32,807 bases of DNA from Kineococcus siccus (GTDB lineage Bacteria > Actinomycetota > Actinomycetes > Actinomycetales > Kineococcaceae): the NCBI RefSeq assembly GCF_009906795.1, contig NZ_JAAALN010000018.1:1-32807 (forward strand), in the 5' to 3' direction. Below are positions 9,809 through 32,807 of the stretch, in pieces (the first letter of the stretch is position 1; the number at the start of each line of letters is the position of its first letter). Both the position numbers and the translations under genes were made by a program. Under the pieces are notes generated by a model, which had not been told where the DNA came from, searched no databases, and worked only from the letters and a program-made list of their open reading frames with translations.

Positions 9809-11662
9809 TCACTCCAGCTCGACGTCTCGGTTGGCCAGGCGGGCAGCCCTGAGCGAAGCCGCGGAGGGGGGCATGGGGGGCGAGCTCCCTGCGCTCGTCA
9901 AGCTTCCCTCACCCTGCGCCGAATAGTCGGTGCTCGATCCAACGGACGGGGGAGTGATGGTGAGCACACTGACCCCGTCCTGCACCCTGAAGAGCACCTC
10001 CGTCGTGTCCTCAGTTTCGCTGACCGCTTCGCCGTCGCCATCGAGGTCGTCGACCCTGACGTCAGCGGCCTGGTCGAGGGTGAGGGTCATCTGCCGGGCG
10101 GCCAGGGTGCGGGCCGTGGACCCGTCCCAAGTCGGCTCTTGCTGCCACACGGCCAGCACGAAGGACCCGTCGCGCTGCGCGAGCAGCAACGTGCGGGTGT
10201 CCTCATCGACACCGTCGAGGTGGTAAGTCAGCGACCCGTCGACATCACCGGCGCCCTCGCCAGGGTCGGTGGTCAACGCCACCAGCTCCGAGAGCGCCCC
10301 GAAGGCAGGCTTGGGGCTGCCGTCGTTGTTGACTAGGCCGAAGGACCCCTCGAAGGAGCCGTCGTCCTTCTCGTCGAGCAGCTCGTAGGTGAAGGTGCGG
10401 GCGATGCCCTGCCGGAAGTGGTCCAGGAACAGCTTCGGCAGCTGCTCGGCGACCTGCGCTTCGGGGGTGCCGGGGTAGCCGCCGCCTGCGGAGCCGTTGG
10501 TGTAGCCGGTCTCGGTGACCTGCACCGGGACGTCGCCGGCGGTGATCTGGTTGTTCTTCAGCACGGTGTCGGTGATCGACTCGTTCATCACCCACTGATT
10601 GCCGGGGTAGTCGTGCGCGACGCCGTAGTCCACCCAGTCACTCAGGTCGCCCAGGGCCTCGTACTTCGCGGTGGTGTTGGTGTCCGCCAGGGAGGGGGCG
10701 AGGATCGGGATGTCCTTGGTCGCGGCGTCACCGTCGTAGGCCTCGGCGACCTGTCGAGTCCACTCGCGGGTCTCGCTCGCCCAGTCTCCACCCGCGAGGT
10801 CGTGCTCGTTGCGGCCCTCGACTGCGTCGATCGCGGTGGGCAGCTGCTCCTTGACCATGTCCTTCAGCGCTTCGGGGTCGGCGTTCTGGCGGGGGTCCTG
10901 CACCATCGTGATGCCGATGCCCAGCGGGGCCAGGTCGTCCTCGACGAAAGCGCTGGCGGCCTCGGAGCCGGTGCCCCACCCATCGCGCAGGTGCCGGAAG
11001 CCCAGCTCCTGCAGCCGGGCGCGCACCATGTCCTGCTTGGCGTAGGGGGTGTCGCCGTAGGTCAGGTGGGTACCCACACCGAGGGAGTCGGTGAAGCAGT
11101 CCGACGGCAACGCCTCGTGCACCTGTACGCCCTCCTCCGCGGCGCTCAGGGCCGCGGTCGCGGCCAGGGTCCTCGCCGGCCGGGCCATCTCGCTCAGCCG
11201 GGCGGGGTTGTCGCAGGTCTCAGCCCGACCGGGCAGCGACCCCGTCACCTCATCCGTCCCAGTACCAGGGACGGCGCCGTCTTCGGTGTCGGCACCGGTG
11301 CTGTCATCAGCGCGGGTCGCAGCTGCCTCGTCGTCGGCGATTGCCCGGCCCGCGCTCCCTTCGTCGCCGGTGACCAGCTTCTTGATCGCCGCCCACGCTG
11401 CCTCTAGCGCCTCTGGGTCGCCGGGGTCAGCCGCCGTCGGCGCTGGAGCGTCTCGGTCGAAGGTCGCACTCTCCCTGAAGTCCGTGACCTCTGGTCTCCT
11501 CGGCGAGGAGTTCGGCGTGGGCTGGGCCGCCGACACGTAGGCCGGCCTCGAGTCAGTGGCGGCGGCGGACGCCGGGCCGGCCAACGTGGCTGTTCCACCA
11601 GCGGCGACAGCCAGCGCCAGTGCGAAGCGGCCGGCGGCCGACGAGGGGTGTCGAGTGAACAT
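9809..11662 (-). CDS. Secreted glycoside hydrolase-like protein (clan GH-A, GH39/GH5-type fold)
   Basis: A 617-aa protein. The ATG at 11662 is chosen because a GGAGAG ribosome binding site lies just upstream and a Sec signal peptide begins there (FALALAVAAGGTATLAGPASAAA); a longer frame upstream to 11770 lacks both. Residues ~36-185 are an acidic, low-complexity Ala/Asp/Thr-rich spacer. Residues ~190-480 resemble a TIM barrel: GVGTHLTYGDTPY, then GFRHLRDGW, then EGRNEHD with Glu286 placed as acid/base, and QVTETGYTNG with Glu384 placed as nucleophile. The C-terminal ~130 residues look like a beta-sandwich accessory domain. Known GH-A enzymes cleave plant, fungal or bacterial polysaccharides; the substrate is not predictable here. 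A strong hairpin follows the gene. Confidence 0.72.
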   Translation of the reverse strand: MFTRHPSSAAGRFALALAVAAGGTATLAGPASAAATDSRPAYVSAAQPTPNSSPRRPEVTDFRESATFDRDAPAPTAADPGDPEALEAAWAAIKKLVTGDEGSAGRAIADDEAAATRADDSTGADTEDGAVPGTGTDEVTGSLPGRAETCDNPARLSEMARPARTLAATAALSAAEEGVQVHEALPSDCFTDSLGVGTHLTYGDTPYAKQDMVRARLQELGFRHLRDGWGTGSEAASAFVEDDLAPLGIGITMVQDPRQNADPEALKDMVKEQLPTAIDAVEGRNEHDLAGGDWASETREWTRQVAEAYDGDAATKDIPILAPSLADTNTTAKYEALGDLSDWVDYGVAHDYPGNQWVMNESITDTVLKNNQITAGDVPVQVTETGYTNGSAGGGYPGTPEAQVAEQLPKLFLDHFRQGIARTFTYELLDEKDDGSFEGSFGLVNNDGSPKPAFGALSELVALTTDPGEGAGDVDGSLTYHLDGVDEDTRTLLLAQRDGSFVLAVWQQEPTWDGSTARTLAARQMTLTLDQAADVRVDDLDGDGEAVSETEDTTEVLFRVQDGVSVLTITPPSVGSSTDYSAQGEGSLTSAGSSPPMPPSAASLRAARLANRDVELE

Positions 11663-11918
11663 CAGCTCTCCAGGACGGGATTGGACAGATGGGCGGAGGT
11701 ACGCGAGGAGCTCGGTGTCCGCACAGCGGGGCCGAGATCGAAAGTCAGCTGACGGCGCAGCCCACTGCATGCCTTCTGCGGCAGGGTTGGCCGGAGGGAG
11801 GCGAAGCCGTCGAGGTGGTCGAAGCGTCGGCGTTGGGCGCCGGAAGTGACGACGCGGGCCTCATCACTGCAAGACGACACGGGCAGGCTTTCCTCGCAGG
11901 CCCACTCGCGAGTGTCGA
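11663..11918. other. Intergenic, upstream of the glycoside hydrolase gene
   Basis: This 256-bp gap lies between two minus-strand genes and should hold the promoter of the glycoside hydrolase. Open frames cross it, but I see no start with a ribosome binding site and no recognisable protein pattern. No hairpin of note was seen after the upstream gene's stop. Confidence 0.45.
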
Positions 11919-13157
11919 TCACTGCGAGACCAAGCGGGAAGCGTTGATTACGGAGGCGTTGGACGGCGCGCGACGCCGAGACGCGTCGCCCGACATCGTG
12001 ACGACGAAGGCGGACAGGGCACGCTTCAGCTGTGGCGCATACAGGTCGCGCGCTGCCCGCCAAGCGTGACGTCCCTGTAGGTCCTCGACGATGGACGTCG
12101 TGACCCACGCTCCCGCACGGACCTGACGATCGACTGCCCGCTGCAGAGGTGGGACGAGACCCTTGATGTCCCTCGTTAGGCGTTCGATGTCCGCGGGAGG
12201 TGTGTGCGGTCGGCCCTGCAGGTAGCGCCAGCACTCCCCCGCTTGCAGCGCCGGACGGGGATCGGTCGACAACAGCGACCGGAGGTTGTTGTCGTCGCGT
12301 GACCACACCTCCGCCAGGCGTTGGGCGTGGTCCGACAAGACTCGGCTGGCCGTGACGAGGCGCGGATCGCCGGCAGTGCGTGCACTGGTTCGGGCTCCCT
12401 CCGCCACGAAGAGGCTCATGCGCACCTGTGCGCTGAGCAACAGCGCCACGTGCTGAGGGCTGACGGCGGCGCCGGCGTCGAGCTGGTCGTTGAGCCGCCG
12501 CAGGCCGGCATGCAGCGACGGGGTGCCCGACACAGGGATGACGGGGAGGTCGCTCAACCTCGGCCTGGCAGTGGCCGACCAGTCTCCTGTCGGTGACCAT
12601 CGCATCAGTCGTTCCGCGTGGAAGGACAGCGCTCCAGAAGCGCCTGGTTCCAGCGCCTCGGCGACGTCCTGGCGCCCGGCGTCACGGGCGGCTCGGCGCA
12701 GCGCGTCGTCCAGATTGACGGCCGAGAGCACGAGCACGGCGGCGTCACCGCCGGCAGCGCGCCCGCTGTCACCTCGGGGACGGTCAGCCGCGCTCGTCCA
12801 GTGACGGTGCGCCTCGGTCGCGAGCCCGCCGATGGCCTCCCACTCCCGTGCCAGCGAGCCAGGACGGGAAGACACGTGGACATCGAGCGGGCTCTCCCGG
12901 GCGATCGGCGCACTCGTGTCGCGTAGTGCGATCTGGAGGCCGAGGCGGGCACTCACCATCCCTTCGCGTAGCGCGACACCCCGTGTCGGAGTCCGGCCGC
13001 CGACGTCCTCGAGCATCTGGCGAGCCAGTGCGAACGTCGCTGCCCGCCCGTGCAGGGCGGCGTCGACGTCGCGGGATGTCGGTCCAACCGCACTGCTGCG
13101 CAGGGAGAGTCGCGCCAGCCGGTACGTCACCTCCGCCGAGGCCAGCTCGGCGCTCAC
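11919..13157 (-). CDS. Helical protein of unknown function, coupled to the gene before it
   Basis: A 412-aa protein. The open frame extends to 13391, but its first 78 codons overlap the upstream gene and look like shadow sequence. GTG 13157 sits in a GTGA overlap with that gene's stop and is the likely start (VSAELASAEVTYRLARLSL). The sequence is soluble, Ala/Arg/Leu-rich and predicted mostly helical, without signal peptide, membrane segment or known catalytic motif. Conserved-looking pieces are GLQIALRD, LVLSAVNLDDALRRAA, HVALLLSAQVRMSLFVAEGAR and LQGRHAWRAARDLY. It lies divergent to the conjugation operon across a 252-bp control region, so an accessory or regulatory role in that element is possible, but this is inference. 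No family was recognised. Confidence 0.62.
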   Translation of the reverse strand: MSAELASAEVTYRLARLSLRSSAVGPTSRDVDAALHGRAATFALARQMLEDVGGRTPTRGVALREGMVSARLGLQIALRDTSAPIARESPLDVHVSSRPGSLAREWEAIGGLATEAHRHWTSAADRPRGDSGRAAGGDAAVLVLSAVNLDDALRRAARDAGRQDVAEALEPGASGALSFHAERLMRWSPTGDWSATARPRLSDLPVIPVSGTPSLHAGLRRLNDQLDAGAAVSPQHVALLLSAQVRMSLFVAEGARTSARTAGDPRLVTASRVLSDHAQRLAEVWSRDDNNLRSLLSTDPRPALQAGECWRYLQGRPHTPPADIERLTRDIKGLVPPLQRAVDRQVRAGAWVTTSIVEDLQGRHAWRAARDLYAPQLKRALSAFVVTMSGDASRRRAPSNASVINASRLVSQ

Positions 13158-13468
13158 ACCGCGGTCCGCGGCAGTCGCGCCGTCAGCTCGTTGAGCGCAC
13201 GGACCGCCCGGCCGCGCTCGAGCGGATCCGGGTGACGTGTGAGTCGAGAGACAGCGCCCACGCAGGCCGACAGCATGTCGTGATGCGCCTCCGTCAACGC
13301 GGAAGCGTTGGCCGGAGGCCGTGGCGGTCGAACGTCCTCGAGGTGGGACAACGCGGCGATGTACATCAAGCGCTGGACCGCGTCGAAGCAACTCTCGATC
13401 AAGTTGGTCAGCAGCGCACGAGCGCGTTCGACCTCAGCGTCAGCGGTAGGGGCCGGGTGGCGTGTCAT
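13154..13468 (-). CDS. Small helical protein of unknown function
   Basis: A 104-aa protein starting at ATG 13468. The start is supported by AGGAGA six bases upstream; the open frame reaches 13660 but the extra 64 residues read like non-coding sequence. The protein is soluble and helical (ERARALLTNLIESCFDAVQ, then EAHHDMLSACVGAVSRLTRH), with no known motif. Its TGA overlaps the GTG of the 412-aa gene by 4 bp, so the two form a translationally coupled pair and may make a complex. It is the first gene on the left of the divergent region that drives the conjugation operon. Confidence 0.62.
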   Translation of the reverse strand: MTRHPAPTADAEVERARALLTNLIESCFDAVQRLMYIAALSHLEDVRPPRPPANASALTEAHHDMLSACVGAVSRLTRHPDPLERGRAVRALNELTARLPRTAV

Positions 13469-13582
13469 GTCGATCTCCTGATCTAGGGAGTAGGCGGTTT
13501 CGGCGGGCCGGCGATCGAACCTGCCGTCCGCATGCGGGGGTCGCGCGGCGACCGGTGTCGTCTGCTGATGACGCGTCCGGGC

Positions 13583-13617
13583 TCGTCCACAGGGCTGTGG
13601 ACGTGATGCCGTCCACA
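13583..13617. promoter_or_regulatory. Cluster of three DnaA-box-like GTCCACA sites, two forming a palindrome
   Basis: TCGTCCACA (13583-13591, plus), ACGTCCACA (13596-13604, minus) and CCGTCCACA (13609-13617, plus) lie within 35 bp. The first two form the perfect inverted repeat CGTCCACAG-GG-CTGTGGACG (13584-13603). High-GC actinobacterial DnaA boxes are close to TTGTCCACA, so the first and third differ mainly in the first two, tolerant bases. Lying in the divergent gap between the unknown pair and the conjugation operon, the cluster may be an operator for both promoters, a DnaA-responsive control site or part of a replication/transfer origin. No AT-rich unwinding region is visible beside it. 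Confidence 0.5.
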
Positions 13618-13653
13618 GTTCTTCGCCTCGGTAGGTGCCTGGCGTGCCGGGCC

Positions 13654-13683
13654 GTGACACAACGGAGGAACATCCGCTAGCGT
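13654..13683 (+). promoter_or_regulatory. Candidate promoter of the conjugation operon
   Basis: GTGACA (13654-13659) and TAGCGT (13678-13683) are spaced by 18 bp and lie about 40 bp upstream of the first operon start. The -35 matches five of six consensus bases; the -10 matches only the TA...T positions usual for actinomycetes. It lies just downstream of the GTCCACA cluster, which would suit repression or activation. This is a pattern match only. Confidence 0.3.
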
Positions 13684-13720
13684 CCGGCGTATCAACTCAC
13701 GTGGCTGGGGGTCATGTCCA

Positions 13721-14305
13721 GTGTCAACCGACATCAAGCAGTCAGGTGCCGTCGCGCTCGGTCCCAGAGCCAGTCCGACCGCGCAAGCCGGTACGTCGTC
13801 CAGCGAGGCACCTGGTCGGCTGGCCGTCCTGGTGCCGGCTCACGGCGGTTGTGGCGCCACCACACTGGCGACACACGCACGCCTACGTGCGGTGCTGACC
13901 GAGATGACGCTGGCACAGTCGTTGTCGCACACGGCGACGACCGGGCTCGCCTTCGTGGTCGTCGCCAGCGCCACGACGTGGGGAACGGCTAGGGCCGTGC
14001 GTTGTCTCCATCAGCTGGAACTCGCCGGCGTGGATGGCAGCGACCTGTATCTCGTCATGACGCGGGACGGTCGCGGACCGATACCCGTCGCGGCGCGAGC
14101 GAGGCTGCGCCTGTTGGCAGCGGTGGTTCGCCACATCGTCCTGGTACCGCACGTCGTTCGTTGGCGTTACGACGCGGGCGATCCACCGCAGCGATCCTCG
14201 CGCTACGACCGAGCGGTCGAGGACCTGCTGCGACATCTCACGTCCCGCCAATCCACCGGGACCGCGGCCCCGCCCGCGGACCCTTCGACAGGAGTCGAAC
14301 TGTGA
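13721..14305 (+). CDS. Degenerate P-loop ATPase-like protein of the conjugation operon (DUF6668-like)
   Basis: A 194-aa protein and first gene of the operon. It starts at GTG 13721 with a G-rich ribosome binding site about nine bases upstream. After a ~32-residue disordered N-terminus come a hydrophobic strand and HGGCGATTLATHARL (residues 41-55). This lines up with the ParA/MinD-type deviant Walker A (KGGxGKTT), but both lysines are replaced (His and Ala). The strand FVVVASATTWGTARAV and helical C-terminus fit a Rossmann-like fold. Proteins of this kind (DUF6668) often open actinobacterial conjugation operons, where they may localise or scaffold the transfer machine. Loss of the lysines argues against normal ATP hydrolysis. 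Its TGA overlaps the next start. Confidence 0.6.
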   Translation: MSTDIKQSGAVALGPRASPTAQAGTSSSEAPGRLAVLVPAHGGCGATTLATHARLRAVLTEMTLAQSLSHTATTGLAFVVVASATTWGTARAVRCLHQLELAGVDGSDLYLVMTRDGRGPIPVAARARLRLLAAVVRHIVLVPHVVRWRYDAGDPPQRSSRYDRAVEDLLRHLTSRQSTGTAAPPADPSTGVEL

Positions 14306-14607
14306 TGCTTCTCGACCTCGTGCACGCCGGAGACGTCTTGTCCCTCGTCCAGGGCGTGATCCCGGATCCGCCCGCCGTCGCGCCCCCTGGTGTCGGCGAG
14401 AAGGTGACCACCTTGCTCGGCTGGGCCAAGTGGGGCGGACTCATCGCCGGCATCGTGGGCCTCCTCGCTTGCGGCATCATGATGGCTGTCGGCCGACGGA
14501 ACCGCTCTTCGATGGCGGCGGATGGAGCCTCTGGCATTCCCTGGGTCCTTGCCGGCCTGACCGTGGTGTCCTTCTCCGCGAGCATCGTGTCGGCGACGGT
14601 GGCGTGA
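14305..14607 (+). CDS. Small two-TM membrane protein (VirB2/pilin-position gene)
   Basis: A 100-aa protein. ATG 14305 overlaps the previous stop (TGATG); GTG 14302, seven bases after AGGAG, is an equally good start and would add one residue. A short N-terminal region is followed by two hydrophobic segments, ~43-62 (GGLIAGIVGLLACGIMMAVG) and ~79-98, separated by a basic, polar loop (GRRNRSS). Size, topology and position before the single-TM and TrbL-like genes match small VirB2/TrbC-like subunits or unnamed membrane proteins in the same place in other actinobacterial clusters. There is no cleavable signal. The VirB2 comparison is inference from topology and context. Confidence 0.65.
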   Translation: MLLDLVHAGDVLSLVQGVIPDPPAVAPPGVGEKVTTLLGWAKWGGLIAGIVGLLACGIMMAVGRRNRSSMAADGASGIPWVLAGLTVVSFSASIVSATVA

Positions 14608-15464
14608 TGGCAGCCCGCGTCATCCAGCTTCGACCTGCGTCTCCGCCACGCCCGTCGCGTCCCATGACTGACGCAGACGTCGCGGCCCTCTACGCCCGGA
14701 CACCGGGTGCACCTCCCGGCCGCCCCCAGCGCACGCGTCGCCGCAGGTGGGCGTTGGTGGCCGGGATGTGCATCGTCCTGAGTGCAGCGGTCGTGGCCCT
14801 TCGCCCGGGCGGGGAGGACGCCGCCCATCCGAGTCCGTCGCCACCGGTGCACACATCGCCGGCGTCGACGCAGCTGCAGTGGCAACAGGTGGACGGCGTC
14901 TGGTTCCCGGTCTCGCCCGCAGCTGGCCCCACGACCCTGGACGAGGACCGAGCGGCGGGCTTCGACGGCTCTGACCTCGGTGCGGCGCTCGCCGCACTGC
15001 ACCTGGTCTACCGAGCAAGCGCCGCACCGGGACCGTCGTCGTTCGTCCCCACCTTGCGGGACCAGGTGGTGGGGCCCGCAGCCGCGCAGCTGACTGAGTC
15101 CGTCCGCCGTGACTACGACGAGGCAGGCGCTGTCGCGGGTATCCGCGAGGGCGAGCCGCTGCCTGCCGGCGCCGCCGCCTTCCTGGGGTACCGCGTCTCC
15201 TCCCTCCCCGACGGCAACCGCGCCGTGCAGATCGTCGAGCAGGCGCCCGACGCGAGCGGCGTCCTCCAGCCGTTCGCCTTCGACGTCGTCGTGACGCGCG
15301 CCCGCAGCACCAGCACAGGCGCAGGCGCGAGCGCGGGCGACTGGAAGGTCGTGGCGCCGGCGACGGGAACCTGGAACTCCGCCTTCAGCCAGCTGCCCCA
15401 CGTCCCCGGGGACATGGTGCCCTTCTCACCCGCGGCTCCGACCGCTGTGCTGGAGGCTCACTGA
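14607..15464 (+). CDS. Single-TM conjugation protein (VirB8-like candidate, DUF8175-type)
   Basis: A 285-aa protein starting at ATG 14607 in a TGATG overlap with the preceding stop; a longer open frame to 14430 is shadow. Residues ~1-45 are a basic cytoplasmic tail (RRRRW), ~46-65 one membrane helix (WALVAGMCIVLSAAVVAL), then a Pro/Ser/Thr spacer and an external domain. That domain contains GFDGSDLGAALAALHLVYRA and a later mixed beta region (LGYRVSSLPDGNRAVQIVEQ, DWKVVAPATG). This bitopic layout with a NTF2-like-sized external domain is that of VirB8/TcpC assembly factors, and proteins with the GFxxSxLGAALAAxH signature recur in actinobacterial conjugation loci. VirB8 equivalence is inferred, not shown by motif. 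Confidence 0.65.
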   Translation: MAARVIQLRPASPPRPSRPMTDADVAALYARTPGAPPGRPQRTRRRRWALVAGMCIVLSAAVVALRPGGEDAAHPSPSPPVHTSPASTQLQWQQVDGVWFPVSPAAGPTTLDEDRAAGFDGSDLGAALAALHLVYRASAAPGPSSFVPTLRDQVVGPAAAQLTESVRRDYDEAGAVAGIREGEPLPAGAAAFLGYRVSSLPDGNRAVQIVEQAPDASGVLQPFAFDVVVTRARSTSTGAGASAGDWKVVAPATGTWNSAFSQLPHVPGDMVPFSPAAPTAVLEAH

Positions 15465-16633
15465 TGCCTTGCACTCCGACCACGCCCCTGAGTTGCGCGA
15501 CCGACCTCGTGGGCGGTCTCGCCAGCTCTGCCGCCACGGCCGCAACGGCCTCCACCGGGAGCGCGTTCGCTGACGCGATGCGCGACGGCGCGACCTGGAT
15601 CATCAAGACGACCGTGGGCTGGTGGCTCGAGGTCCCGTCCATCGACTTGGCGGAGTCGCCCGCCGTCCAGCTCCGGGAGTACGTCTGGTGGCTCGCGATC
15701 GTCGTGGCAGCAGGGAGTGTGACCTGGCAGGGAGCGAGGATGGCCCTGACTCGACGTGCCGATCCCCTGCTGGACATCGGGCGCGGACTGCTCACCCTGG
15801 CACTCTGGGCCGGCGTCGGGATCACGGCGCCGGCTCTCGCGCTCCAGGCGGGTGACGCCTTCTCCCTCTACGTGCTCGACAAGGCGGCCAGCGGACGGGT
15901 GGCCGACCGGTTGATCCAGCTCGCCAGTCTGACCGGAGTGAACTCTGCCGGAGCCGTCATCATCCTGGGTCTGGTGGCCATGCTGGCCGGTCTGGTCCAG
16001 GCCGTGCTCATGATCTTCCGTGAGGGCGCGGTCGTCGTCCTGGCAGGAACGCTGGTCCTGGCGGCAGCTGGGAACGCGTCGAACTTCGGCAGGCCGTGGC
16101 TCATGAAGCTGATCAGCTGGATGCTCGCTCTCGTCTGCTTCAAGCCGGTTGCGGCACTGGTCTACGCGACGGCACTGGTGATGACCGGGGAGGGGACCGA
16201 CCCGAGGACGGTCATCGTGGGGTTGACGATGATGGTCCTGGCGGTCGCGGCCCTCCCTGTGCTCATGAAGCTCTTCAGCTGGGCGACGGGTAGCACCGGT
16301 CACTCCGGCAGCCTGGGCGGCGCTGCGGCGGCCGCCATGGGCACGGCGGCTGCCGGCGTTCAGGTAGCAGGTGCCGCCCGTTCTCGTTCCGGAGCGACGG
16401 CGGCGGGCGCCATGCCGGCCACCGGTCAGGCCCAGAGCATCTCCCGCGACCTGGGCGGTTTCGGCAGTGCACCGACAGGAGCCGCAGCGACGACGGGCGC
16501 CTCCGTGGCGGCAGGAGGCGTCGGGGTCGCCGCTGCCGTGGTCGGGCGCGCTGCGGACGTCACCAAGCAGGCCGGCAGTAGCGCCGCAGCCCCCCTCGCC
16601 GATCGACCTGAAGGGACGGACCGCAGCGCATGA
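15464..16633 (+). CDS. TrbL/VirB6-like polytopic conjugation channel protein
   Basis: A 389-aa protein starting at ATG 15464 (TGATG overlap; GGAGG seven bases upstream). About six membrane segments lie near residues 73-93, 104-127, 163-187, 188-206, 214-240 and 245-265, followed by a ~115-residue Ala/Gly/Ser/Thr-rich low-complexity tail. This pattern is typical of TrbL/VirB6-type inner-membrane channel subunits of actinobacterial and Gram-positive conjugation systems. It is placed between the VirB8-like candidate and the SCO6880/VirB4 genes, as expected for a channel component. The tail is probably cytoplasmic or disordered. Family assignment is by topology and context, with little sequence-motif support. 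Confidence 0.72.
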   Translation: MPCTPTTPLSCATDLVGGLASSAATAATASTGSAFADAMRDGATWIIKTTVGWWLEVPSIDLAESPAVQLREYVWWLAIVVAAGSVTWQGARMALTRRADPLLDIGRGLLTLALWAGVGITAPALALQAGDAFSLYVLDKAASGRVADRLIQLASLTGVNSAGAVIILGLVAMLAGLVQAVLMIFREGAVVVLAGTLVLAAAGNASNFGRPWLMKLISWMLALVCFKPVAALVYATALVMTGEGTDPRTVIVGLTMMVLAVAALPVLMKLFSWATGSTGHSGSLGGAAAAAMGTAAAGVQVAGAARSRSGATAAGAMPATGQAQSISRDLGGFGSAPTGAAATTGASVAAGGVGVAAAVVGRAADVTKQAGSSAAAPLADRPEGTDRSA

Positions 16634-18162
16634 CCACCGTCACCGGGCACTCGGGCACCAGCAGCCGCAAGGCTCAGGACGTGAGCGGCATCCGCACCTA
16701 CGGGGGCTGGCGCCGAACCCGCGGGATCGGACTCTTCGGTCTCGGCGCCACCGCGACCCTCATCGTCCTGGGATGTGCGGTGGTGCCGCTCCTCGGTCTC
16801 GCGATCGACGTGCGGACGGGCCTCACCCTCGCGGTCCCCTGCGCGCTCGTCACCCTCGTCACCTGCGCACGCATCGACGGTGTGCCGTTCAGCCACCTCG
16901 TTATCCGGCGCTGTCAGTGGCGATGGGCTGTCGCCCGCGGCTACACCTCCCTGCGAGCCGGAGTCGTCAGTGACCACCCCTCGGCCTGGCAACTGCCGGG
17001 AGTGCTCGCCCCGACGGAGCTGCTCTCCGTCGAGGACGGGCGCGGGGGGCGGTTCGGCCTGGTTCGCGATCGCTCATCGGGACTGCTCACCGCGACGCTG
17101 AGGTGTGCCTCGACGTCGACGTGGCTCGTCGACGGCGCCGACGCCGACGCCTGGGTCTCGAACTGGCACTCCTGGCTGGCCTCCCGAGGCTTCGACCCGC
17201 TGGTCGCCTGGGTGGCCGTCACCGTCGACACCGCGCCCGAGCCGGGGTCGACGCTGGCACGCAACGTCGGCGTGCGCCTCGACGGATCAGCTCCACGGGA
17301 CACGCAGATCCTCATGGCCGAACTGGTCGACGGCTCGCCCTCAGCCTCGGCCGACGTCGACACCCGGGTGTCCATCACCTTCGACCCGTCTCGGGCCGGT
17401 GACCGGCTCGACGACCTCGCCGACCAGGCCGCCGAGGTCTCCCGCGCCTTGTCCGGGATGGAGGCCGCCCTGAGCGAGTGCGGGGTGACGGTCCTCGCGC
17501 GGTGCTCGGCGACCGAGCTCGCCGGTTGCGTGCGCGTCGCCTTCGACCCCACCTCACGTGGTGACGTCGAGTCCGTCGTCGGCGCCGGCACGACCGTGGA
17601 GGAGGGTGGCCCCTTGTCCTGGGAGACGTCCGGACCCGTTGCCGCCGAGGAGGCGTGGGACCACTACCGCCACGACTCGGGAACCTCGATCACGTGGTCG
17701 TGGCACGAGGCGCCGCGCCAGCAGGTGACGTCGAACGTCCTCGTACGACTCATGTCTCCCTCCCGGTACCCGAAGCGGGTCACGATGCTCTACAAACCGC
17801 TGAGCGCAGGCTCCGCCTCCCGGCTGCTCGAGGGACAGGTCAACGCTGCCGCGTTCCGCGAGGCCTATCGGCGAAGTCAGGGACGCGACGCCACCGCTCG
17901 AGACCAAGCCGACCAGGAGCAGGCTCAGAACGCCGCCCGAGAGGAGGCGCTCGGCGCCGGAGTCGTCCTGATGAGCTTGTACGCGACGATCACCGTCACC
18001 GACCCCGACGACCTCCCCGCAGCGGTCGCTGATGTGGAGGCCCGTGCCGACCAGTCGAAGGTCCAGGTTCGCCGGATGTTCGGCGCCCAGTCGGTCGGCT
18101 TCGCCACCACCCTTCCCGCGGGGATCTACCCACCGTTCGTCGCAGGCAGGAGCACCCGATGA
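16630..18162 (+). CDS. SCO6880-family conjugation membrane protein
   Basis: A 510-aa protein starting in an ATGA overlap at 16630. The N-terminus has the family-typical start (YGGWRRTRGIGLFGLGATAT), with two membrane helices at ~32-59 and ~62-81 followed by a basic segment, like a PrgI/TcpE-type protein. The long soluble part (SHLVIRRCQWRWAVARGY, then DGADADAWVSNWHSWLASRG) resembles the N-terminal, non-ATPase domain of VirB4/TraE proteins. It thus looks like a PrgI-like membrane anchor fused to a VirB4 N-domain, while the motor domain is encoded separately by the next gene. Known members occur almost always beside VirB4- and VirD4-like genes in actinobacterial plasmids and integrative elements. 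No Walker motif is present. Confidence 0.8.
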   Translation: MTTVTGHSGTSSRKAQDVSGIRTYGGWRRTRGIGLFGLGATATLIVLGCAVVPLLGLAIDVRTGLTLAVPCALVTLVTCARIDGVPFSHLVIRRCQWRWAVARGYTSLRAGVVSDHPSAWQLPGVLAPTELLSVEDGRGGRFGLVRDRSSGLLTATLRCASTSTWLVDGADADAWVSNWHSWLASRGFDPLVAWVAVTVDTAPEPGSTLARNVGVRLDGSAPRDTQILMAELVDGSPSASADVDTRVSITFDPSRAGDRLDDLADQAAEVSRALSGMEAALSECGVTVLARCSATELAGCVRVAFDPTSRGDVESVVGAGTTVEEGGPLSWETSGPVAAEEAWDHYRHDSGTSITWSWHEAPRQQVTSNVLVRLMSPSRYPKRVTMLYKPLSAGSASRLLEGQVNAAAFREAYRRSQGRDATARDQADQEQAQNAAREEALGAGVVLMSLYATITVTDPDDLPAAVADVEARADQSKVQVRRMFGAQSVGFATTLPAGIYPPFVAGRSTR

Positions 18163-19658
18163 TCCAACGAGCCTTCATGCGCCCACCGCGCCGCTCCCCC
18201 GCCGCTGGAGACGTGGTCCCGCCCGCCTGGGGGTGGCGTGCACCCCGCGCCGGTCGCCTGGCCCACGTCGCGGCCGCACCCGAGTACCAGGCCACGACGG
18301 TGCAAGCGTGCGGCCTGTACCCGTTCGTGGCCGGCTCCGGGTCCCCCTCGGTAGGAGTTCCCGTCGGCCGCCACATGATGTGGGGGGAGGTGGTCTGCAT
18401 GGACCCCTTCGCCTGGCTCGACGCGGGGCTCGTCACCAACCGCGGCCTCACCGTCCTCGGGCAGCCTGGCACGGGGAAGTCCGCGATGCTCAAACGTCTC
18501 TCACGCGGGATGCTCGCGTTCGGCGTCCGACCGTTGTTCCTCGGTGACCTGAAACCCGACTACTCCGCTGTCGTGCATTCCGCCGGCGGGCAGGTTCTTC
18601 GGGTAGGGCGCGGCCTGGACCGCATCAACCCCCTGGACGCCGGCCCGCTCGGCGCCGCACTGGCCCGGATGTCCGGCCCCGGTGCCCAACGCCTGCGCCT
18701 GGAGGTTCGGGGGCGGCGTCTCTCGGCCACCCTTGCGCTGTGTTCGCTGGTTCGCCGCCACGCCCGGGTGACCAACGGGGAGGAGACCGTGCTCGGTGCC
18801 GCTGTCGACCTGCTGACGGAACGCGCGACAGAGGGCGTCGACCCCACGATCCCGGATGTGCTGCGGGTCATCCGGCAGGCTCCCGATCGGCTGGTGGCTG
18901 CCGCCGAGGTCGACGACGCGCCCGCCTACCGCACCGAGACGAAAGAACTCCGCCAGACGCTCAACCTGTTGTGCGAGGGCTCGCTGAAGGGCGTCTTCGA
19001 CGGCCCGACGTCGCACCCCATCGACCTCGACGCCCCGGCGGTGAGCGTGGACATCTCTGCCGTGGCCGCCTCGGGCGACACCCTCGTCGCGGCCGCGATG
19101 CTCTCGACGTGGTCGTACGGATTCGCCGTCATCGACGCCTCGACCGCACTGGCCGAGGCCGGTCTCGCGCCGCGGCGACGGTACTTCGCCGTGATGGACG
19201 AGCTGTGGCGGGCACTGCGCGGGGCCCCAGGTCTCGTCGACCACGCCGATGCCCTCACCCGCGTCTACCGGGGGCGCGACGTCGCTCACGCGATGGCCAC
19301 CCACTCCCTCGACGACCTCTCTGCGCTGCCGAGCGAGGAGGACCGTGCCAAGGCTCGGGGGTTCATCGAACGCAACGCCATCACCGTCCTTGCGGGCCTG
19401 CCCCCGCGCGAACTCGAGGAGGTGACCCGCGTCGTGCCGCTGTCCGGCCGCGAGGTGTCCATGGTCTCGTCCTGGTCCGCACCCGAGTCCTGGCAGACCG
19501 GCGCCCGCCACCCCGGGCGAGGGAAGTACCTGCTCAAGACAGGTCAGCGAGTCGGCATCCCCGTGGAGATGGAACTCGTCGGCGACGAGCCTGCCCTGTA
19601 CGACACCGACTCCAGCCACCGGCGCCCCGCGGCGCCGTCCTCTCGGGAGGTCCTGTGA
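18159..19658 (+). CDS. VirB4-like conjugation ATPase
   Basis: A 499-aa ATPase starting at ATG 18159, six bases after AGGAG and overlapping the previous stop (ATGA). It has a canonical Walker A, VLGQPGTGKSAMLKRL, near residues 100-110, and a Walker B, RRYFAVMDELWRAL, near 340-350. A later YRGRDVAHAMATHSLDDL and a C-terminal VSSWSAPESW complete the HerA/VirB4 motor pattern. Family members hydrolyse ATP at the inner membrane to power assembly or substrate transfer. The VirB4 N-terminal domain is apparently supplied by the upstream SCO6880-family gene, so the pair acts as a split VirB4. The GTG of the coupling-protein gene overlaps its stop. Confidence 0.85.
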   Translation: MIQRAFMRPPRRSPAAGDVVPPAWGWRAPRAGRLAHVAAAPEYQATTVQACGLYPFVAGSGSPSVGVPVGRHMMWGEVVCMDPFAWLDAGLVTNRGLTVLGQPGTGKSAMLKRLSRGMLAFGVRPLFLGDLKPDYSAVVHSAGGQVLRVGRGLDRINPLDAGPLGAALARMSGPGAQRLRLEVRGRRLSATLALCSLVRRHARVTNGEETVLGAAVDLLTERATEGVDPTIPDVLRVIRQAPDRLVAAAEVDDAPAYRTETKELRQTLNLLCEGSLKGVFDGPTSHPIDLDAPAVSVDISAVAASGDTLVAAAMLSTWSYGFAVIDASTALAEAGLAPRRRYFAVMDELWRALRGAPGLVDHADALTRVYRGRDVAHAMATHSLDDLSALPSEEDRAKARGFIERNAITVLAGLPPRELEEVTRVVPLSGREVSMVSSWSAPESWQTGARHPGRGKYLLKTGQRVGIPVEMELVGDEPALYDTDSSHRRPAAPSSREVL

Positions 19659-21424
19659 CCCGCCCGCTCGAGCCCGCCGGCGGACTCCTGCCCCCGGAGG
19701 GCCGGTTCCCGATGCTTCTCCTCGCCACCGTCTGGGGCGGCCTGGCCCTCGTCGCTGCTGCCTGGCTGGGTGGGACCACGGCGAGCTGGGCCACCGGGCA
19801 CGGCTGGCGCGGTCCCGCCTTCGGCGTGCAGTTCGCCCACGCACTGGTCACGGAGGGCCCTGGCTCGTCGTGGCCGCGAGTGCCCGGGGCCGCCGTCACG
19901 GCCGGCGTCGTGGTCGCGGTCGGAGGGGTCGCCGGCGTGACGGTCGCCGCGGTGCGCGCCGGGCGGACCAACGCTGCGCGTCCCTTCGGGCTGGCCGGGG
20001 CGCGTGATCTCGCGGTGCTCCTGACACCGGCCTCGACGACGCGTGCTCAGGCGTTGCGCCCGTCCCTGCCCGGCGGCGCATCGGGGGCCGAGACGGGTCT
20101 CGCCTTGGGTGTGATCGCCGGCACGCCGGCCCGTCGACGGGAGACGACGACGGTGAGGGCCTCCTGGGAGGACGTCCTCCTGGCCGTCATGGCGCCCCGC
20201 GCCGGCAAGACGACCTCTCTCGCCGTTCCCTCCGTCCTCGACGCTCCCGGCGCGGTGGTCGCCACGTCGAACAAGGCCGACCTGTGGGCCGCGACCGCCG
20301 CGGTGCGAGCTCGTGACACCTCCGAGGCGGTGTGGACCTTCGATCCCCAGGCGATCACCAACTCGCCCCGGACGTGGTGGTGGAACCCGCTGACCGCCGT
20401 CGACTCCGTCGAGGAAGCGTCACGCCTGGCTGGGCACTTCGTGCAGGAGGTCCGCGCGGAGAAGTCCGCCCGCGACTTCTGGTCCTCCGCTGCACAGGAC
20501 CTGCTCACCGCTCTCCTTCTCGCCGCCGCCACCTCCCGGCGCTCTCTGCACGACGTCTACGAGTGGCTCAACGATCCCGTCGTTCCGACGCCCGGCGTTC
20601 TGCTGCGCGAGCACGGCTACCCGGCGGTCGCTGCTTCCCTGACCGGTCGTCAGCACGGGGCCCCGGAGACCCGCGACGGCATCTACGAGACGGCGCGCAC
20701 CGCCGCCCAGTGCCTGCGTGACGACCGCATCATGGAGTGGGTCACTCCACCCGCCGGCGAGCTCCCCCAGCTCGATACCACGGCCTTCGCCACCTCCCGC
20801 GAGACGCTGTACCTGCTGTCCAAGGACGGCGCCGGGGCCGCTGGGCCACTCGTCGCGGCGCTCACCGATCGGGTGATGCGCGACGGAGTGCGCGCGGCGG
20901 AGCGCTGCGGTGGGCGTCTGGATCCGCCGCTGGTCGTCGTCCTGGACGAGGCCGCGAACGTCTGCCGCATCTCCGACCTGCCCGACCTCTACAGCCACCT
21001 CGGGTCGCGCGGGATCGTCCCGCTGACGATCCTGCAGTCCTACCGCCAAGGCGTACGCGTCTGGGGTGAGGCCGGGATGGACACGCTCTGGTCCGCGGCC
21101 ACGGTGAAGCTCCTGGGCGCGGGCATCGACGACGCCAAGCTCGCCGAGGACGTCTCGCGCCTCATCGGCGAGCACGACGTCACCATCCGCTCCTTCTCCG
21201 AAGGCGACCGGCGCCGCACCACGTCAACCTCGTTGCGCCGCCAACGCATCCTGCCGCCGGAGGACGTCCGCGCCCTGGCGCGTGGGCACGCCCTCCTGCT
21301 GGCCACCGGGCTCCGCGTCGGCCGCCTCGAACTGCTGCCCTACTACCAAGGCTCGCGCGCCGGGGACGTAGCCGCTGCGACCGCCGAGGCCACCGCCGCC
21401 ACTGTCGGGGGCGTCTCGCGGTGA
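19655..21424 (+). CDS. TraG/VirD4-family type IV coupling ATPase
   Basis: A 589-aa protein. Start chosen as GTG 19655, four bases after GGGAGG and inside a GTGA overlap; the open frame continues back to 18740 but only as a shadow of the ATPase gene. Two N-terminal membrane helices (~23-43 and ~75-100) precede the motor domain. Walker A is VMAPRAGKTTS near residues 177-187, with Met where the first glycine usually stands; Walker B is LVVVLDEAANVC near 424-435. Other family motifs are DLLTALLLAAATS, DLYSHLGSRGIVPLTILQSYRQG and the C-terminal LATGLRVGRLELLPYY. Such proteins bring the relaxase-DNA complex to the channel. Its presence indicates DNA transfer rather than a purely protein-secreting system, although no relaxase gene is visible. 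Confidence 0.88.
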   Translation: MTRPLEPAGGLLPPEGRFPMLLLATVWGGLALVAAAWLGGTTASWATGHGWRGPAFGVQFAHALVTEGPGSSWPRVPGAAVTAGVVVAVGGVAGVTVAAVRAGRTNAARPFGLAGARDLAVLLTPASTTRAQALRPSLPGGASGAETGLALGVIAGTPARRRETTTVRASWEDVLLAVMAPRAGKTTSLAVPSVLDAPGAVVATSNKADLWAATAAVRARDTSEAVWTFDPQAITNSPRTWWWNPLTAVDSVEEASRLAGHFVQEVRAEKSARDFWSSAAQDLLTALLLAAATSRRSLHDVYEWLNDPVVPTPGVLLREHGYPAVAASLTGRQHGAPETRDGIYETARTAAQCLRDDRIMEWVTPPAGELPQLDTTAFATSRETLYLLSKDGAGAAGPLVAALTDRVMRDGVRAAERCGGRLDPPLVVVLDEAANVCRISDLPDLYSHLGSRGIVPLTILQSYRQGVRVWGEAGMDTLWSAATVKLLGAGIDDAKLAEDVSRLIGEHDVTIRSFSEGDRRRTTSTSLRRQRILPPEDVRALARGHALLLATGLRVGRLELLPYYQGSRAGDVAAATAEATAATVGGVSR

Positions 21425-21906
21425 GCACCGATGCGGCGTACGGAGACGACCACGACTGGGCGGCGGAGGAGACCGCCGCCCGCATCGCCCGCCTTGAGCT
21501 GCGCGTCGACGAGCTGGATGCTTTGTTCCCCGACCCCGCAGGTGTCGGTGGGCAGTCCCCGCCGCCGGACGATCTAAGGGCCAGCGGTCTGGACGCCTGG
21601 GTGGAGGACTACTTCGCCACCACGTTCACCCGCCCCCTCGGCGGGGAGTGGCGCTGGTGCCGACGCTGGCGTGAGCACCCCGAGGCCGTCGTACGCCTCG
21701 ACGCGCTGTGGCACGCCTTCGAGACGCTCCGCCGCGACCCCGACACCGGTATGGCGGTCTGGTTGCGCGACCACCTCGACCACCACTTCGTGATCCTTCT
21801 CGGGTCACGGGGTCCCTTCGCGCAGTGCACCGCGGCCCGTCACGAACTACTGAGTTCACTGCCGACCGCCCAAGGGAGAGAGGCGGACCACCTGGCCGAA
21901 ACCTGA
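21421..21906 (+). CDS. DUF4913 protein at the end of the conjugation operon
   Basis: A 161-aa protein starting at GTG 21421 in a GTGA overlap with the coupling-protein gene. An N-terminal helix (ETAARIARLELRVDELDALF) looks like a coiled coil. The DUF4913 core follows, with WVEDYFATTFTRPLGGEWRW, the HPEAVVRLDALWHAFETLR helix and MAVWLRDHLDHHF, ending in GPFAQC. Members are small actinobacterial proteins repeatedly found next to TraG-like genes on plasmids and integrative elements; function is unknown. It closes the operon; a 243-bp gap to the convergent membrane-protein gene follows. Confidence 0.82.
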   Translation: MSTDAAYGDDHDWAAEETAARIARLELRVDELDALFPDPAGVGGQSPPPDDLRASGLDAWVEDYFATTFTRPLGGEWRWCRRWREHPEAVVRLDALWHAFETLRRDPDTGMAVWLRDHLDHHFVILLGSRGPFAQCTAARHELLSSLPTAQGREADHLAET

Positions 21907-23837: not shown

Positions 23838-26800
23838 GTGCGAGCTGCAGCCAAGCGCGCCAAGACTCAGACCAGTCAACGTTCGGAGGCCCCGAACGAC
23901 GCTGATCCGTCCACGAACCTCGCACCTCGCAGGGGCCTGTCACGGTGGGATGCCGGCCCGGTCGCTGGGGTCGTGACCGGTTGCGTCGCGGCTGGTGTCG
24001 CGGTGGCGTTTGCGGTCCCGGCGGCGGCCGCGACACCGTCCACCGCGACACCGTCCACCGGGGCGGCGTCGCCGAATCAGGGGCGGGCACCGCTGACGTC
24101 GGCGCAGCAGCCGTCGTCGGTGTACCCGAAGCTGTCGCAGGCCGCGAAGGATGCGCTGCTGAAGGCGACCGCGAAGACCGCCGGGGACGCGGTACCGGTG
24201 GAGGACGTCGCAGCGCGCACCGCGTACTCCACGACCACGGTGGACCCGGAGTCCGGAACCCACCGCACGGTGATCTCTCCGGATGCGGTGAACTACCGCG
24301 ACGCCTCGGGTGCGTTCAAGCCGGTGGACAACGACCTGGTCTCCGCGGCCGCGAAGGCGGGTGGGGCGAGCACCGGGTGGCAGAACGCCGCCGCCGGCTA
24401 CGACGCCGCGTTCCCCACCGACCTGACCAAGCCGGTCACCATCACCGACCAGAACGACGCCGCCCGCTGGGTGTCGCTGCAGCTGAACCCCACCCAGGCG
24501 GCGGCCCCCGCACCCGCCTCGCCCGCCGCACCTGCCTCGCCTGCCGCCTCGACCGCGACGTCGACCGCAGCTCCTGTGCCGGCCCCCACTGCCGAGGCGA
24601 CCGCGTCGGCGAAGGCGGCCAGGTCCCTGGCCTCGGCGCCGGCGTCCGCACCGGCCACGAGCACGATGTCCTCGAGCACGGCGGGGGCGCCGACTGAGGT
24701 GCCGGTCGCTGCGGCGCCGGGCGTGGTGTCCGGCGATGAGGTGGTCTACGACAACGTGCTGCCCGGTGCCGATGTGACGTTCCAGGCGCAGGGGTCGGGG
24801 GTCAAGGAAGCCATCACCCTGGACAGCGCTGCTGCGCTGCCCGGGGGTGCGCTGACCTACACGATCCGGACCGGCAAGGACCTGAAGCTCACCGAGACCG
24901 ATGACGTGGTCGCGGTGACCACGGCGGCGGGGGCGCCGGTGTTCGTGATCCCGGCCCCGTTCCTGGACGACGCGAAGGGCGCGCACTCCGACGACGTCGA
25001 CGTCACTATCGCCCCCGACACCGCTGCCGGGGCGGGGGTGTACGCGATGACGGTGACCCCGTCGAAGGACTGGCTCGCCGCACCGGAGCGGGTGTGGCCG
25101 GTGGTCTTGGACCCGACCATCCAGTACCCGGACCCGATGCTGGCCTGCTCGCTGCGCTCCGCGGCCCCGACGGTCAGCAACTGCAGCGGCTCCAGCGTCC
25201 CGCTGTCGTGGGATGCCAGCACCGGCACCCAGGAGCGCGCGATCCTGCGGTTTGAGTCCCTCGCCGATGCCGTCCCGGCGGATGCGATCATCGCCGACGC
25301 GCAGCTGCAGCTGAACATCGCCTCCCCGGCCGCGGGCACCACCGCGCCCACGGGGGCCGCGGCCAGCGTGGATGTGCGTGAACTCACGAAGTACTACGAG
25401 CCCGGCGCGTCGTGGAACCAGGCCACCAACACCACCGCGTGGGCCACCCCCGGCGGTGACCGCGCCGCCCTGGTCAGCGCCCGCACCCAGGTCGTCGCCA
25501 ACGGCACCTACCAGAACATCGGTGTCTCCGAGCTCGTGCAGCGCTGGGTGGAGGGCACCTCCACCGCCCACGGCTTCGTGCTGGAGAAGACCTCCGCCAC
25601 CGCCGGCGGCGCCCGCGTCGTCGTCGGCGCCCCCTCCGCGGGGGCCACGACGGCCCCGAAGTTGCAGGTCATCTGGGAGCCGCGGGTCGGTGACCGCAAG
25701 GGCAACTCCGCTCTGCTCACCGAGGAGCTCGACGACCGCACCACCGTGACCGTGAACCCGGCCACCGGCAACGCCGCCGTCGAGACCTCCGCCCTGGCCA
25801 TCGCCGGGGTCGGGCTGGACTTGAATGTCACGCAGACGTCGAACTCGCTGAGCACCAACTTCCGCACCGCGACCGGGTACGGGTGGAACTCCTCCATCGG
25901 TGACCAGCACCTGCAGCGCTACGGCAAGACCACCTTCTACCGCGACGGGGCCGGGACGAACTGGACGTTCTACCTCGCCGTCGACGGCACCTGGGTGCGC
26001 CCGCTCGGCCTGGACGTGGACCTGGTGCAGAACGCCAACAACACGTTCACGATGACCGACCGCCGCGCCAAGGTCGTGACCTCGTTCGTGGACATCGGCT
26101 CCCCGGCGGGTGAGTGGTACAAGCCGGCCACGATCACCGACCGCAACGGCAACGCGATCACCTTCGCCTACGACGCGACCGCCCGCACCCCCTACAACGG
26201 GTGGAAGATTCTCCGCTCGGTCACCGACACCCGCGGCCGGGTCCTCACCGTCGCCAACGGTGGCGCGTACAACGCCTTCATGGAAGACGTCCAGGGGCGG
26301 TCGGTGTACTACACCATCACCAACGACAACCTGACGACCTTCAGCAACGGCGCCGGCGGCGACACCACCTACACCTACGACGCCGCCCGCCGGGTCACCT
26401 CCATCACCGTCCCCGAAGGCCAGCGCACCGAGCTGACCTACGACCGGGGTGGCCGGGTCCTCACCCTGAAGCGGATCACCGCCGACGTCGGCACCAAGAC
26501 GTGGACCTTCGCCTACACCCCCTTCACCCGCACCGCGGGGGTGTCCTCGACGAAGACCACGGTCACCGATTCGAACAACCACAACACCGTCTACACCTCC
26601 GACGGCCGCGGCCGCGTCATGGACGCCACCGACGCCCGCGGCAAGAAGCGATCCGGCACGTACACCCCCAATGACGATGGGGCCACCGCCACCGGTGCCA
26701 CTGCGGGCGCGGGTGGGGCAGGCCAGACGACTGTCGACACCTACGACTCCGTTGGGTCGTCACCGCAGGCCGCGACGTGGAACCTCAGCTCCTCTCGACT

Positions 26801-29036: not shown

Positions 29037-29455
29037 CGTGGGCGGAGCAGGAGGGCAGTGGGTTGGATCTGAGTGAGGTCGAGGACATCGTCAAGACTGC
29101 CGCCCAAGACGTCGGCGGGCTATCCATCAGTAGCGATAAGGACGCCGGATACATCAGAATCTTTATTGGTCCACCATCGGGTGACCCCGAATCCGTCTCT
29201 GGCGACCCGCAGGTGCGGATCTGGACTTCCGGTACTGAAGCCTTCTTCATTGATGTCCCCGGAGGGTTCGGGTACCAGGAGTTCGATGACGTGCCTGAAG
29301 GCCAGGTCGCGACACTTCACCTACTAGTCACGCTAGCCAGCAGGTATCTACACGGTCACTTCGAGGAGAAAGAAGAGCAACGCTCCTTTGGACGACGGAG
29401 ACGCTACCTAGAAATTTCTTCGAGAAACGAGGTCTATCGACTGTATCAGAGGTGA
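29018..29455 (+). CDS. Putative immunity protein for the RHS C-terminal toxin
   Basis: A 145-aa cytosolic protein starting at ATG 29018, 19 bp before the RHS stop and in another frame. It is mixed alpha/beta and acidic in its first two thirds: LSEVEDIVKTAAQDVGGL, YIRIFIGPPSGDP, VRIWTSGTEAFFIDVPGGFG, then a helix LHLLVTLASRYLHGHFEE and a basic tail. It has no signal peptide or membrane segment. Position directly after a polymorphic-toxin C-terminus, overlap with it, small size and visibly more AT-rich DNA than the RHS body all fit an immunity gene acquired together with the toxin tip. No immunity family was recognised, so the call is based on context. Confidence 0.68.
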   Translation: MVEERLTWAEQEGSGLDLSEVEDIVKTAAQDVGGLSISSDKDAGYIRIFIGPPSGDPESVSGDPQVRIWTSGTEAFFIDVPGGFGYQEFDDVPEGQVATLHLLVTLASRYLHGHFEEKEEQRSFGRRRRYLEISSRNEVYRLYQR

Positions 29456-29998: not shown

Positions 29999-30376
29999 TC
30001 ACATCAGTAGAACTAACAGGGTTGCAGTCAGACCCCCTTGATCGCGCCGCTGACATGCGTGAGTGGCGCCGAAAGCCCAGTCGATGCAGCTGCACGCCTG
30101 GCGTAGGAAGGGCACAGGGTCGATCGCCGCGTTGGGGTTGTGCACTTCGAAGTGGAGGTGGCACCCAGTGCTCGTGCCGCCGTTGCCGACTCGGCTGATG
30201 AGTTGCCCGGCCGTCACAGTGGCGCCGACCTTCACCAGGAGATCCCGCGGCGCCATGTGCCCGTAGACGGTGCGGTACCCCCCGGCGTGCTCCAGGACGA
30301 TCCAGTGCCCGAACCCGCTCGCGGGCCCGCTGTTGACGATGCGTCCGGCTGAGGCGGCGTAGTTGTCATGGCCCAT
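29999..30376 (-). pseudogene. M23-type peptidase domain remnant
   Basis: The minus-strand frame from about 30415, with an ATG at 30376, reads HMGHDNYAASAGRIVNSG, then FGHWIVLEHAGG, TVYGHMAPRDLLVKVGATV and STGCHLHFEVHNPNAAIDP, ending at 29999. This is the LytM/M23 fold with both zinc motifs, HxxxD (HMGHD) and HxH (HLH). The roughly ten residues normally between HxGxD and YAAxxG (the GAPxGTPI segment) are missing, and no N-terminal domain or signal is present. The frame becomes unrecognisable near the ISL3 remnant. It is most likely the truncated end of a peptidoglycan hydrolase or of a toxin carrying such a domain. Its last ~30 residues (after PVPFLRQ) look non-native. Confidence 0.68.
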
Positions 30377-30520
30377 GTGAGGGGCTGGGCATCCCAAGGT
30401 GCTGGTGCTGCGGTCTCTCTGGACCACCTCCTGCGCTGTAACAGCACGCGGGATAATGTATGGAATCCCGTGCAATACCTGCGTCCCTGCGACGGTCATG
30501 ACGGCACCCCGAACCGTTGC

Positions 30521-31251: not shown

Positions 31252-31259
31252 AGAGCCCG

Positions 31260-32728: not shown

Positions 32729-32729
32729 G

Positions 32730-32807
32730 TGTCAACGGCGGACGAAAACGGACCCTCTATCGACGGATGAAAGTTGACCCCCGGGGGTCAGGTGGGGCCT
32801 CGTGGGG
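32730..32807 (+). mobile_element. Left end of an IS21-like insertion sequence (continues beyond the window)
   Basis: The sequence changes abruptly at 32730 from RHS coding DNA to TGTCAACGGCGGACGAAAAC. Two imperfect direct repeats of 20 bp, offset by 25 bp, lie at 32736-32755 and 32761-32780 (15 of 20 bases match; shared core CGGAYGAAA...GACCC). A perfect 16-bp palindrome TGACCCCCGGGGGTCA lies at 32775-32790. Multiple transposase-binding repeats starting with TGT are the usual end structure of IS21-family elements. No transposase is visible inside the window, so the family call is provisional. Confidence 0.62.

Follow-up and report, generated by a model that had tools for sequence, protein, structure and literature searches.

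The locus analyzed here is the whole of contig C99 (32,807 bp, referred to below as the window) of the Kineococcus siccus draft genome (G000; 4.58 Mb in 495 contigs), and its central feature is an eight-gene operon (g1 to g8; 13721–21906, + strand) for a type IV secretion system (T4SS). The operon includes the only SCO6880 locus in the genome. At all seven junctions the stop and start codons overlap by 1 or 4 bp, a claim of an earlier note on this DNA that was confirmed by reading each stop and start. The junctions lie at 14305, 14607, 15464, 16633, 18162, 19658, and 21424 and read, in the same order, GTGATG, GTGATG, TGATG, ATGA, ATGA, GTGA, and GTGA; the first two are compatible with either overlap length.

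The first gene, g1 (13721–14305, 194 aa), occupies the position of the DUF6668/ParA-like genes in related plasmids and has no profile assignment (best Pfam match TPR_9, E 0.012, under the cut-off). Its earlier labeling as DUF6668-like finds no profile support; in a Xylanimonas plasmid, the gene occupying this place carries the DUF6668 annotation. The short membrane protein g2 (14302–14607, 101 aa) is 88% identical to its counterpart in Kineococcus sp. TRM81007 (G008) and is a possible VirB2-like pilin (T4SS_pilin, 15.3 bits against a cut-off of 26.6). The polytopic membrane protein g4 (15464–16633, 82% identity in TRM81007) is placed in the VirB6/TrbL position from sequence and position only; both the pilin and the VirB6 assignments are tentative ones made from weak or positional evidence. 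Between them, g3 (14604–15464) has one N-terminal membrane helix and, in its structure model (m3cba373d2423, mean pLDDT 60), an NTF2/VirB8-like domain. In VIA-align this model ranks VirB8 (2bhm; Z 8.0, root-mean-square deviation (rmsd) 3.1 over 116) and pIP501 TraM (4ec6, Z 7.7) first; because generic NTF2 folds trail by less than 1 Z unit, g3 is only probably VirB8-like, and Foldseek gave no match to the model at E≤0.001. Two ATPases follow g5. The VirB4-type motor ATPase g6 (18159–19658, 499 aa) lacks an N-terminal domain of its own and carries Walker A (GQPGTGKS) and Walker B (FAVMDE) motifs, with only weak VirB4-type matches in Pfam/NCBIfam. The VirD4/TraG-type coupling ATPase g7 (19655–21424) matches T4SS-DNA_transf (PF02534, 103.9 bits, cut-off 20.1), TraG-D_C (110.4 bits), and TrwB (1e9r, E 7.8e-7), and contains the motifs APRAGKT and VVVLDE. 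The final gene, g8 (21421–21906), encodes a DUF4913 protein (PF16259, 106.6 bits), a domain on which our search found no literature.

The SCO6880 family protein g5 (16630–18162; NF042935, 478.2 bits) has membrane helices and a fold resembling the VirB4 N-terminal domain. Its model (15-sequence alignment, mean pLDDT 69) aligns to residues 15–385 of R388 TrwK/VirB4 (Z 21.6, rmsd 4.6 over 333 residues; Foldseek E 1.2e-6). Based on this model, g5 and g6 appear to constitute VirB3/VirB4 jointly, encoded as two coupled genes. The likeness suggests a concrete role for SCO6880, which NCBI names merely by family and which is little mentioned in the literature searched. After TrwK/VirB4, the model comes nearest to ESX type VII chains, led by an ESX-3 translocon chain (6umm_A, Z 14.1), followed by flavin oxidases with Z below 10; the likeness to the ESX chain hints at a fold common to type IV and type VII systems.

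The nearest named SCO6880 matches are those of Kineococcus sp. TRM81007 (88%) and K. indalonis (G003; 74%). At the nucleotide level, the window aligns with the 21.5-kb locus of TRM81007 over 12090–21828 only, and the flanks differ. The overlapping junctions, read by eye from the printed sequences, recur at 7/7 positions in TRM81007, at 6/6 readable positions in K. indalonis (G003:C352), and at 5/7 in a genome from another family of the same order (G019); the pattern is inherited. Relative to TRM81007, substitutions at first, second, and third codon positions number 39/34/79, 10/3/32, 44/43/115, and 43/27/162 for g1 to g4 and 53/30/187, 30/20/185, 81/60/234, and 16/12/49 for g5 to g8. The third-position excess in all eight frames shows that g1 to g8 are real genes that have been under purifying selection since the split from TRM81007; it gives no date for selection inside this strain.

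The earlier note had reported that the window lacks a relaxase, an integrase, a replication gene, and an NlpC/P60 hydrolase. The first three are indeed absent, as the element's own relaxase, replication, and integrase proteins, described below, match nothing there. An M23 peptidase fragment, a probable cell-wall hydrolase remnant (29999–30376, − strand; PF01551, 79 bits), was overlooked. It overlaps an ISL3 transposase (30368–31366), and an SLT-type cell-wall hydrolase is encoded elsewhere in the genome, on contig C14.

A real absence of the relaxase was suggested by Pfam searches. PF08751 matched none of six genome handles and nothing in the K. siccus genome; PF03432, run on six handles of which two are the same genomes reached twice, matched in G003 and G007 and in neither K. 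siccus nor TRM81007; and PF13814 gave a single sub-threshold match in K. siccus (19.4 bits, cut-off 25.3). This absence was overturned by tblastn with a 452-aa protein of TRM81007. Its gene, 7.5 kb past the operon on the opposite strand (54997–56355), has no Pfam match, and the best tblastn matches of the protein are annotated mobilization proteins and relaxases of Streptomyces and Micromonospora plasmids (about 40–48% identity). Tyr17 and H128-x-x-D131-H132-x-H134 are invariant in all six sequences aligned (this protein and five other relaxases); PDB sequence searches for the relaxase returned nothing useful. As a query, it has one match in the K. siccus genome, 69% identical (G000:C333:74889–76184), and one in K. 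indalonis (G003:C374). The premise that a locus without a Pfam relaxase has no relaxase therefore fails, as PF03432 misses the protein in both K. siccus and TRM81007. In both genomes the relaxase comes after a DUF2637 gene and a gene of HTH_36 (helix-turn-helix, HTH) type, the latter scoring 26.5 in TRM81007, above the cut-off of 25, and 21.6 in K. siccus, below it; “replication gene” is thus a label by position.

In TRM81007 the element is complete, within a 145-kb contig, in the order tRNA-Thr (14128–14201), integrase, SLT, operon (39473–47478), relaxase, DUF2637, HTH, and tRNA-half repeat. The gene abutting the tRNA is 64% identical to an integrase on C14 of K. siccus and is followed by the SLT-domain gene. 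Directly past the HTH gene, at 59032, the anticodon arm of the tRNA is repeated exactly over 17 bp, and the repeat runs on as the 3′ half of tRNA-Thr; when the region was shuffled 100 times (first-order Markov), no repeat reached 17 bp (maximum 14). The repeat and the tRNA 3′ half define the bounds of the element, which measures about 44.9 kb from the tRNA-Thr to the copied half. No terminal repeat was found in five contigs checked. A relaxase with replication or integration genes just outside the window, in the usual order, is the finding that the earlier note had said would overturn its reading, and the TRM81007 locus shows this arrangement outright. In G019, the operon, the companion gene described below, the HTH gene, and the relaxase (whose match holds one TAG) are in the TRM81007 order; the arrangement is largely there too, with the relaxase and replication-type gene in place, but the 62 kb read from this genome yielded no homologue of the integrase.

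Counterparts of both ends of this element are present in K. siccus on two other contigs. C14 contains a tRNA-Phe followed by an integrase (PF00589, 93 bits), SLT (26 bits), Peptidase_M78, and DUF6545, and is 74% identical in nucleotide sequence to the left end of the TRM81007 element over 5.7 kb. An identical 61-bp attachment (att) repeat occurs on C14 (6813–6873) and on C333 (72121–72181), the latter beside the HTH/DUF2637/relaxase module. The tRNA-Glu-Asp-Phe cluster is present in the five relatives checked and serves as a chromosomal landmark; no tRNA was found in the window itself. On C333 no complete gene follows that of the relaxase, and a sequence of IS256 type (IS, insertion sequence) starts in the 3′ end of the relaxase gene. 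The right end of the window (32728–32807, no strand assigned) is an IS21-type terminus, 55 bp of which are 85.5% identical to DNA adjoining istB in Gordonia pGKT3. These insertion sequences would explain why the assembly breaks at the ends of C99 and C333. Among the explanations offered in the earlier note, a position at an edge fits: the window is a contig in its entirety and stops at an IS21-type sequence, and C333 and C14 carry the relaxase, the replication-type genes, the integrase, and the hydrolase; no positive support was found for mobilization in trans. Its main inference, that the system is relaxase-free or has been repurposed, is not upheld, as a relaxase is encoded in the same genome and nothing positively supports repurposing.

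We also surveyed 149 genomes of the order, pairing 66 SCO6880 places (at least 144 bits, in 50 genomes) with 41 relaxase-alignment matches (28 genomes); SCO6880 rows below 144 bits and 5 fragment rows among the 46 relaxase rows were excluded. When both occur on one contig, the relaxase is convergent with and downstream of the SCO6880 locus in 23 of 26 pairs and arranged otherwise in three. The gap in the 23 convergent pairs is 5.0–25.5 kb (median 8.0 kb); three of these relaxases (G008, G003:C508, and G007:C34) belong to the search model and 20 are independent. A relaxase of this kind was not found in 26 of the 50 SCO6880 genomes, so loci with other relaxases, or truly relaxase-less ones, exist. 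The convergent downstream position is a rule usable in annotation, and it was solely through this position in a sister genome that the present relaxase was detected. Two effects can make conjugation systems in draft actinobacterial genomes seem relaxase-less: assemblies stop at insertion sequences, and one clade of MOBP-like relaxases evades the Pfam relaxase models.

Based on these observations, the operon belongs to an ordinary, already known kind of actinobacterial integrative and conjugative element (ICE), one whose relaxase is missed by standard Pfam profiles. The components used to recognize T4SS-based ICEs are all found: a VirD4-type coupling protein, a VirB4-type ATPase with channel proteins, a relaxase, and an integrase with tRNA att repeats. 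In TRM81007 relaxase and integrase share the operon's contig; in K. siccus they lie on other contigs and the att repeat spans two. We consider it very probable that the operon is the DNA-export part of a tRNA-inserting, T4SS-based ICE comprising C14, C99, and C333. We infer the joins between these contigs, and also that the element transfers or has ever transferred. A single element is supported by the presence in the genome of one SCO6880 locus and one such relaxase, the latter 69% identical to a protein encoded 7.5 kb from the operon in TRM81007.

The element would reside in tRNA-Phe here, whereas the closest relative carries it in tRNA-Thr, and the tyrosine integrase would excise it. The MOBP-like HUH relaxase, whose gene lies downstream in convergent orientation alongside the DUF2637 and HTH replication-type genes, would then nick the element, and the VirD4-type g7 would dock the relaxosome and hand the nicked strand to a channel composed of g2 (possibly the pilin), g3 (VirB8-like), g4 (VirB6-like), g5 (membrane anchor and VirB4 N-domain), and g6 (VirB4 motor). 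The SLT transglycosylase may open the cell wall, and the integrase would reinsert the element. All of these steps are taken from knowledge of the family; what we observed directly is gene content, conservation, the tRNA/att repeats, and the presence of the parts in the genome.

Several observations weigh against this reconstruction. No contig or read connects C14, C99, and C333. Positions 1–9.4 kb of the window have no counterpart in the TRM81007 element and match only multicopy gene families within the genus; this segment may be cargo or other DNA. On C333 (68497–72181), a second integrase C-terminal remnant lies beside the att copy, with a degenerate att-like copy at 68.5 kb. The outer genes of C333 were considered as the chromosomal side of tRNA-Phe, but they are absent after tRNA-Phe in the stretches read from five relatives, and tandem accretion of elements at tRNA-Phe is likelier. 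Lastly, the IS256-type sequence cuts the K. siccus relaxase near residue 424 of about 452; it is therefore doubtful that the K. siccus element is intact, and it may no longer transfer.

This truncation, together with the IS21-type terminus and the ISL3 element beside the M23 fragment, is what favors a decaying remnant, in which insertion sequences broke the element and the operon merely persists. Such decay is compatible with an ICE origin, but we think it unlikely given that all eight genes are open, that the ATPase motifs are intact, and that purifying selection has acted since the split from TRM81007, with selection within the strain undated. Less probable still is a separate plasmid or second element carrying the operon with an unrecognized relaxase of its own, C14 and C333 then belonging to a different element without a T4SS. 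The contigs are unjoined, 1–9.4 kb and 22–32.8 kb of the window are unlike TRM81007, and the nearest plasmid relatives bear this operon; yet under this arrangement one genome would have to contain both a relaxase-less T4SS and a relaxase that lacks a T4SS, each nearest to one half of the TRM81007 element. Repurposing of the operon, for protein or toxin export or for a role in differentiation like that of the Streptomyces coelicolor cmd cluster, which has homologues of SCO6878/6880/6881 and affects sporulation according to PMC2782261, is very improbable despite the adjoining toxin genes and truncated relaxase, as the sister copies retain the relaxase (TRM81007, G019) and the integrase and att sites (TRM81007), mobility genes lie on other K. 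siccus contigs, and the three toxin-region proteins searched (29018–29455, 31260–31877, and 31874–32563) have no match in G008:C40. We give equally little credence to a channel that, with the relaxase end cut by an insertion sequence, is retained in this strain for another job, such as delivering the RHS or Tox-REase-7 proteins of this contig to neighboring cells.

Among the neighboring genes, two without family matches adjoin the operon. The larger companion gene (11919–13160, − strand), divergent from the operon and predicted from sequence to be mostly helical, has no Pfam or PHROG match. Homologues occur beside the operon in TRM81007 (substitutions by codon position, 77/65/161) and in G019; on the small contig G003:C372, a further one has a homologue of g1 as its neighbor. 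It was considered as a novel relaxase, with no plasmid or profile match, and dropped after the real one was found. The small companion gene (13157–13480, − strand; start uncertain) has 62% identity over 92 aa in TRM81007. Next to these, 9809–11770 (− strand) encodes a secreted-looking 653-aa protein without a Pfam match; the gene is 84% identical in nucleotide sequence over 1.5 kb to one on G007:C34, another T4SS contig, and the protein has a 31% identical relative beside the companion gene on G003:C372. Farther left, 3748–7614 (− strand) encodes a MASE1-PAS-GGDEF-EAL protein with an additional DUF1059 match (32.6 bits) at its C-terminus, a seemingly unusual fusion. Right of the operon, 23838–29455 contains a gene for a 1732-aa RHS-repeat protein and then a small gene of lower GC, possibly its immunity partner, while 31260–32563 (− strand) encodes a protein with a Tox-REase-7 toxin domain (62.5 bits) and, after it, a second small gene of lower GC, possibly a toxin/immunity pair. 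Just upstream of the TRM81007 operon (G008:C40, 32850–36886) are GmrSD_C-Excalibur, Excalibur, and CoiA-nuclease-like genes.

No Kineococcus conjugative element of this type was found in the titles and abstract beginnings searched, and the available parts of PMC13118837 and PMC12857230 contain nothing on SCO6880-type systems. The accessible text of Ghinet et al. 2011 (PMC3218068) searches for actinobacterial T4SS-based ICEs by an integrase, a VirD4-type coupling protein, a VirB4-type ATPase, and a relaxase, the same components found here; in that text the survey is limited to MOBF (TrwC) relaxases, whereas the present one is detected by neither PF08751 nor PF03432. The same source states that actinomycete integrative and conjugative elements (AICEs) with tyrosine integrases are mostly in tRNA genes. 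Unlike TraB/FtsK-type AICEs, this system is a multi-gene T4SS, and g7 is of the VirD4/TraG family with no FtsK match in Pfam. In the cmdABCDEF cluster of S. coelicolor, similarity to SCO6878, SCO6880, and SCO6881 is reported for cmdB, cmdC, and cmdD, but this is a differentiation cluster for which the part of PMC2782261 available reports no integrase or relaxase. The SCO6880-type plasmid operons of Rhodococcus, Thermobifida, Streptomyces, and Xylanimonas share the order of small gene, VirB8-like position, larger gene, and SCO6880 and, where the stretch shows them, the ATPase, coupling protein, and DUF4913; the Thermobifida and Streptomyces plasmids also encode relaxases or mobilization proteins. 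An NlpC/P60 or lytic transglycosylase gene adjoins the operon in these plasmids, whereas here SLT is at the integrase end. Finally, the pGO1/pIP501-type MPF_FATA systems provide a precedent for a separate VirB4 N-terminal part in TrsD, described in the available portion of PMC12102498 as remotely homologous to the N-terminal portion of VirB4 and apart from the motor; in contrast, SCO6880 combines membrane helices and a predicted VirB4 N-domain in one protein.

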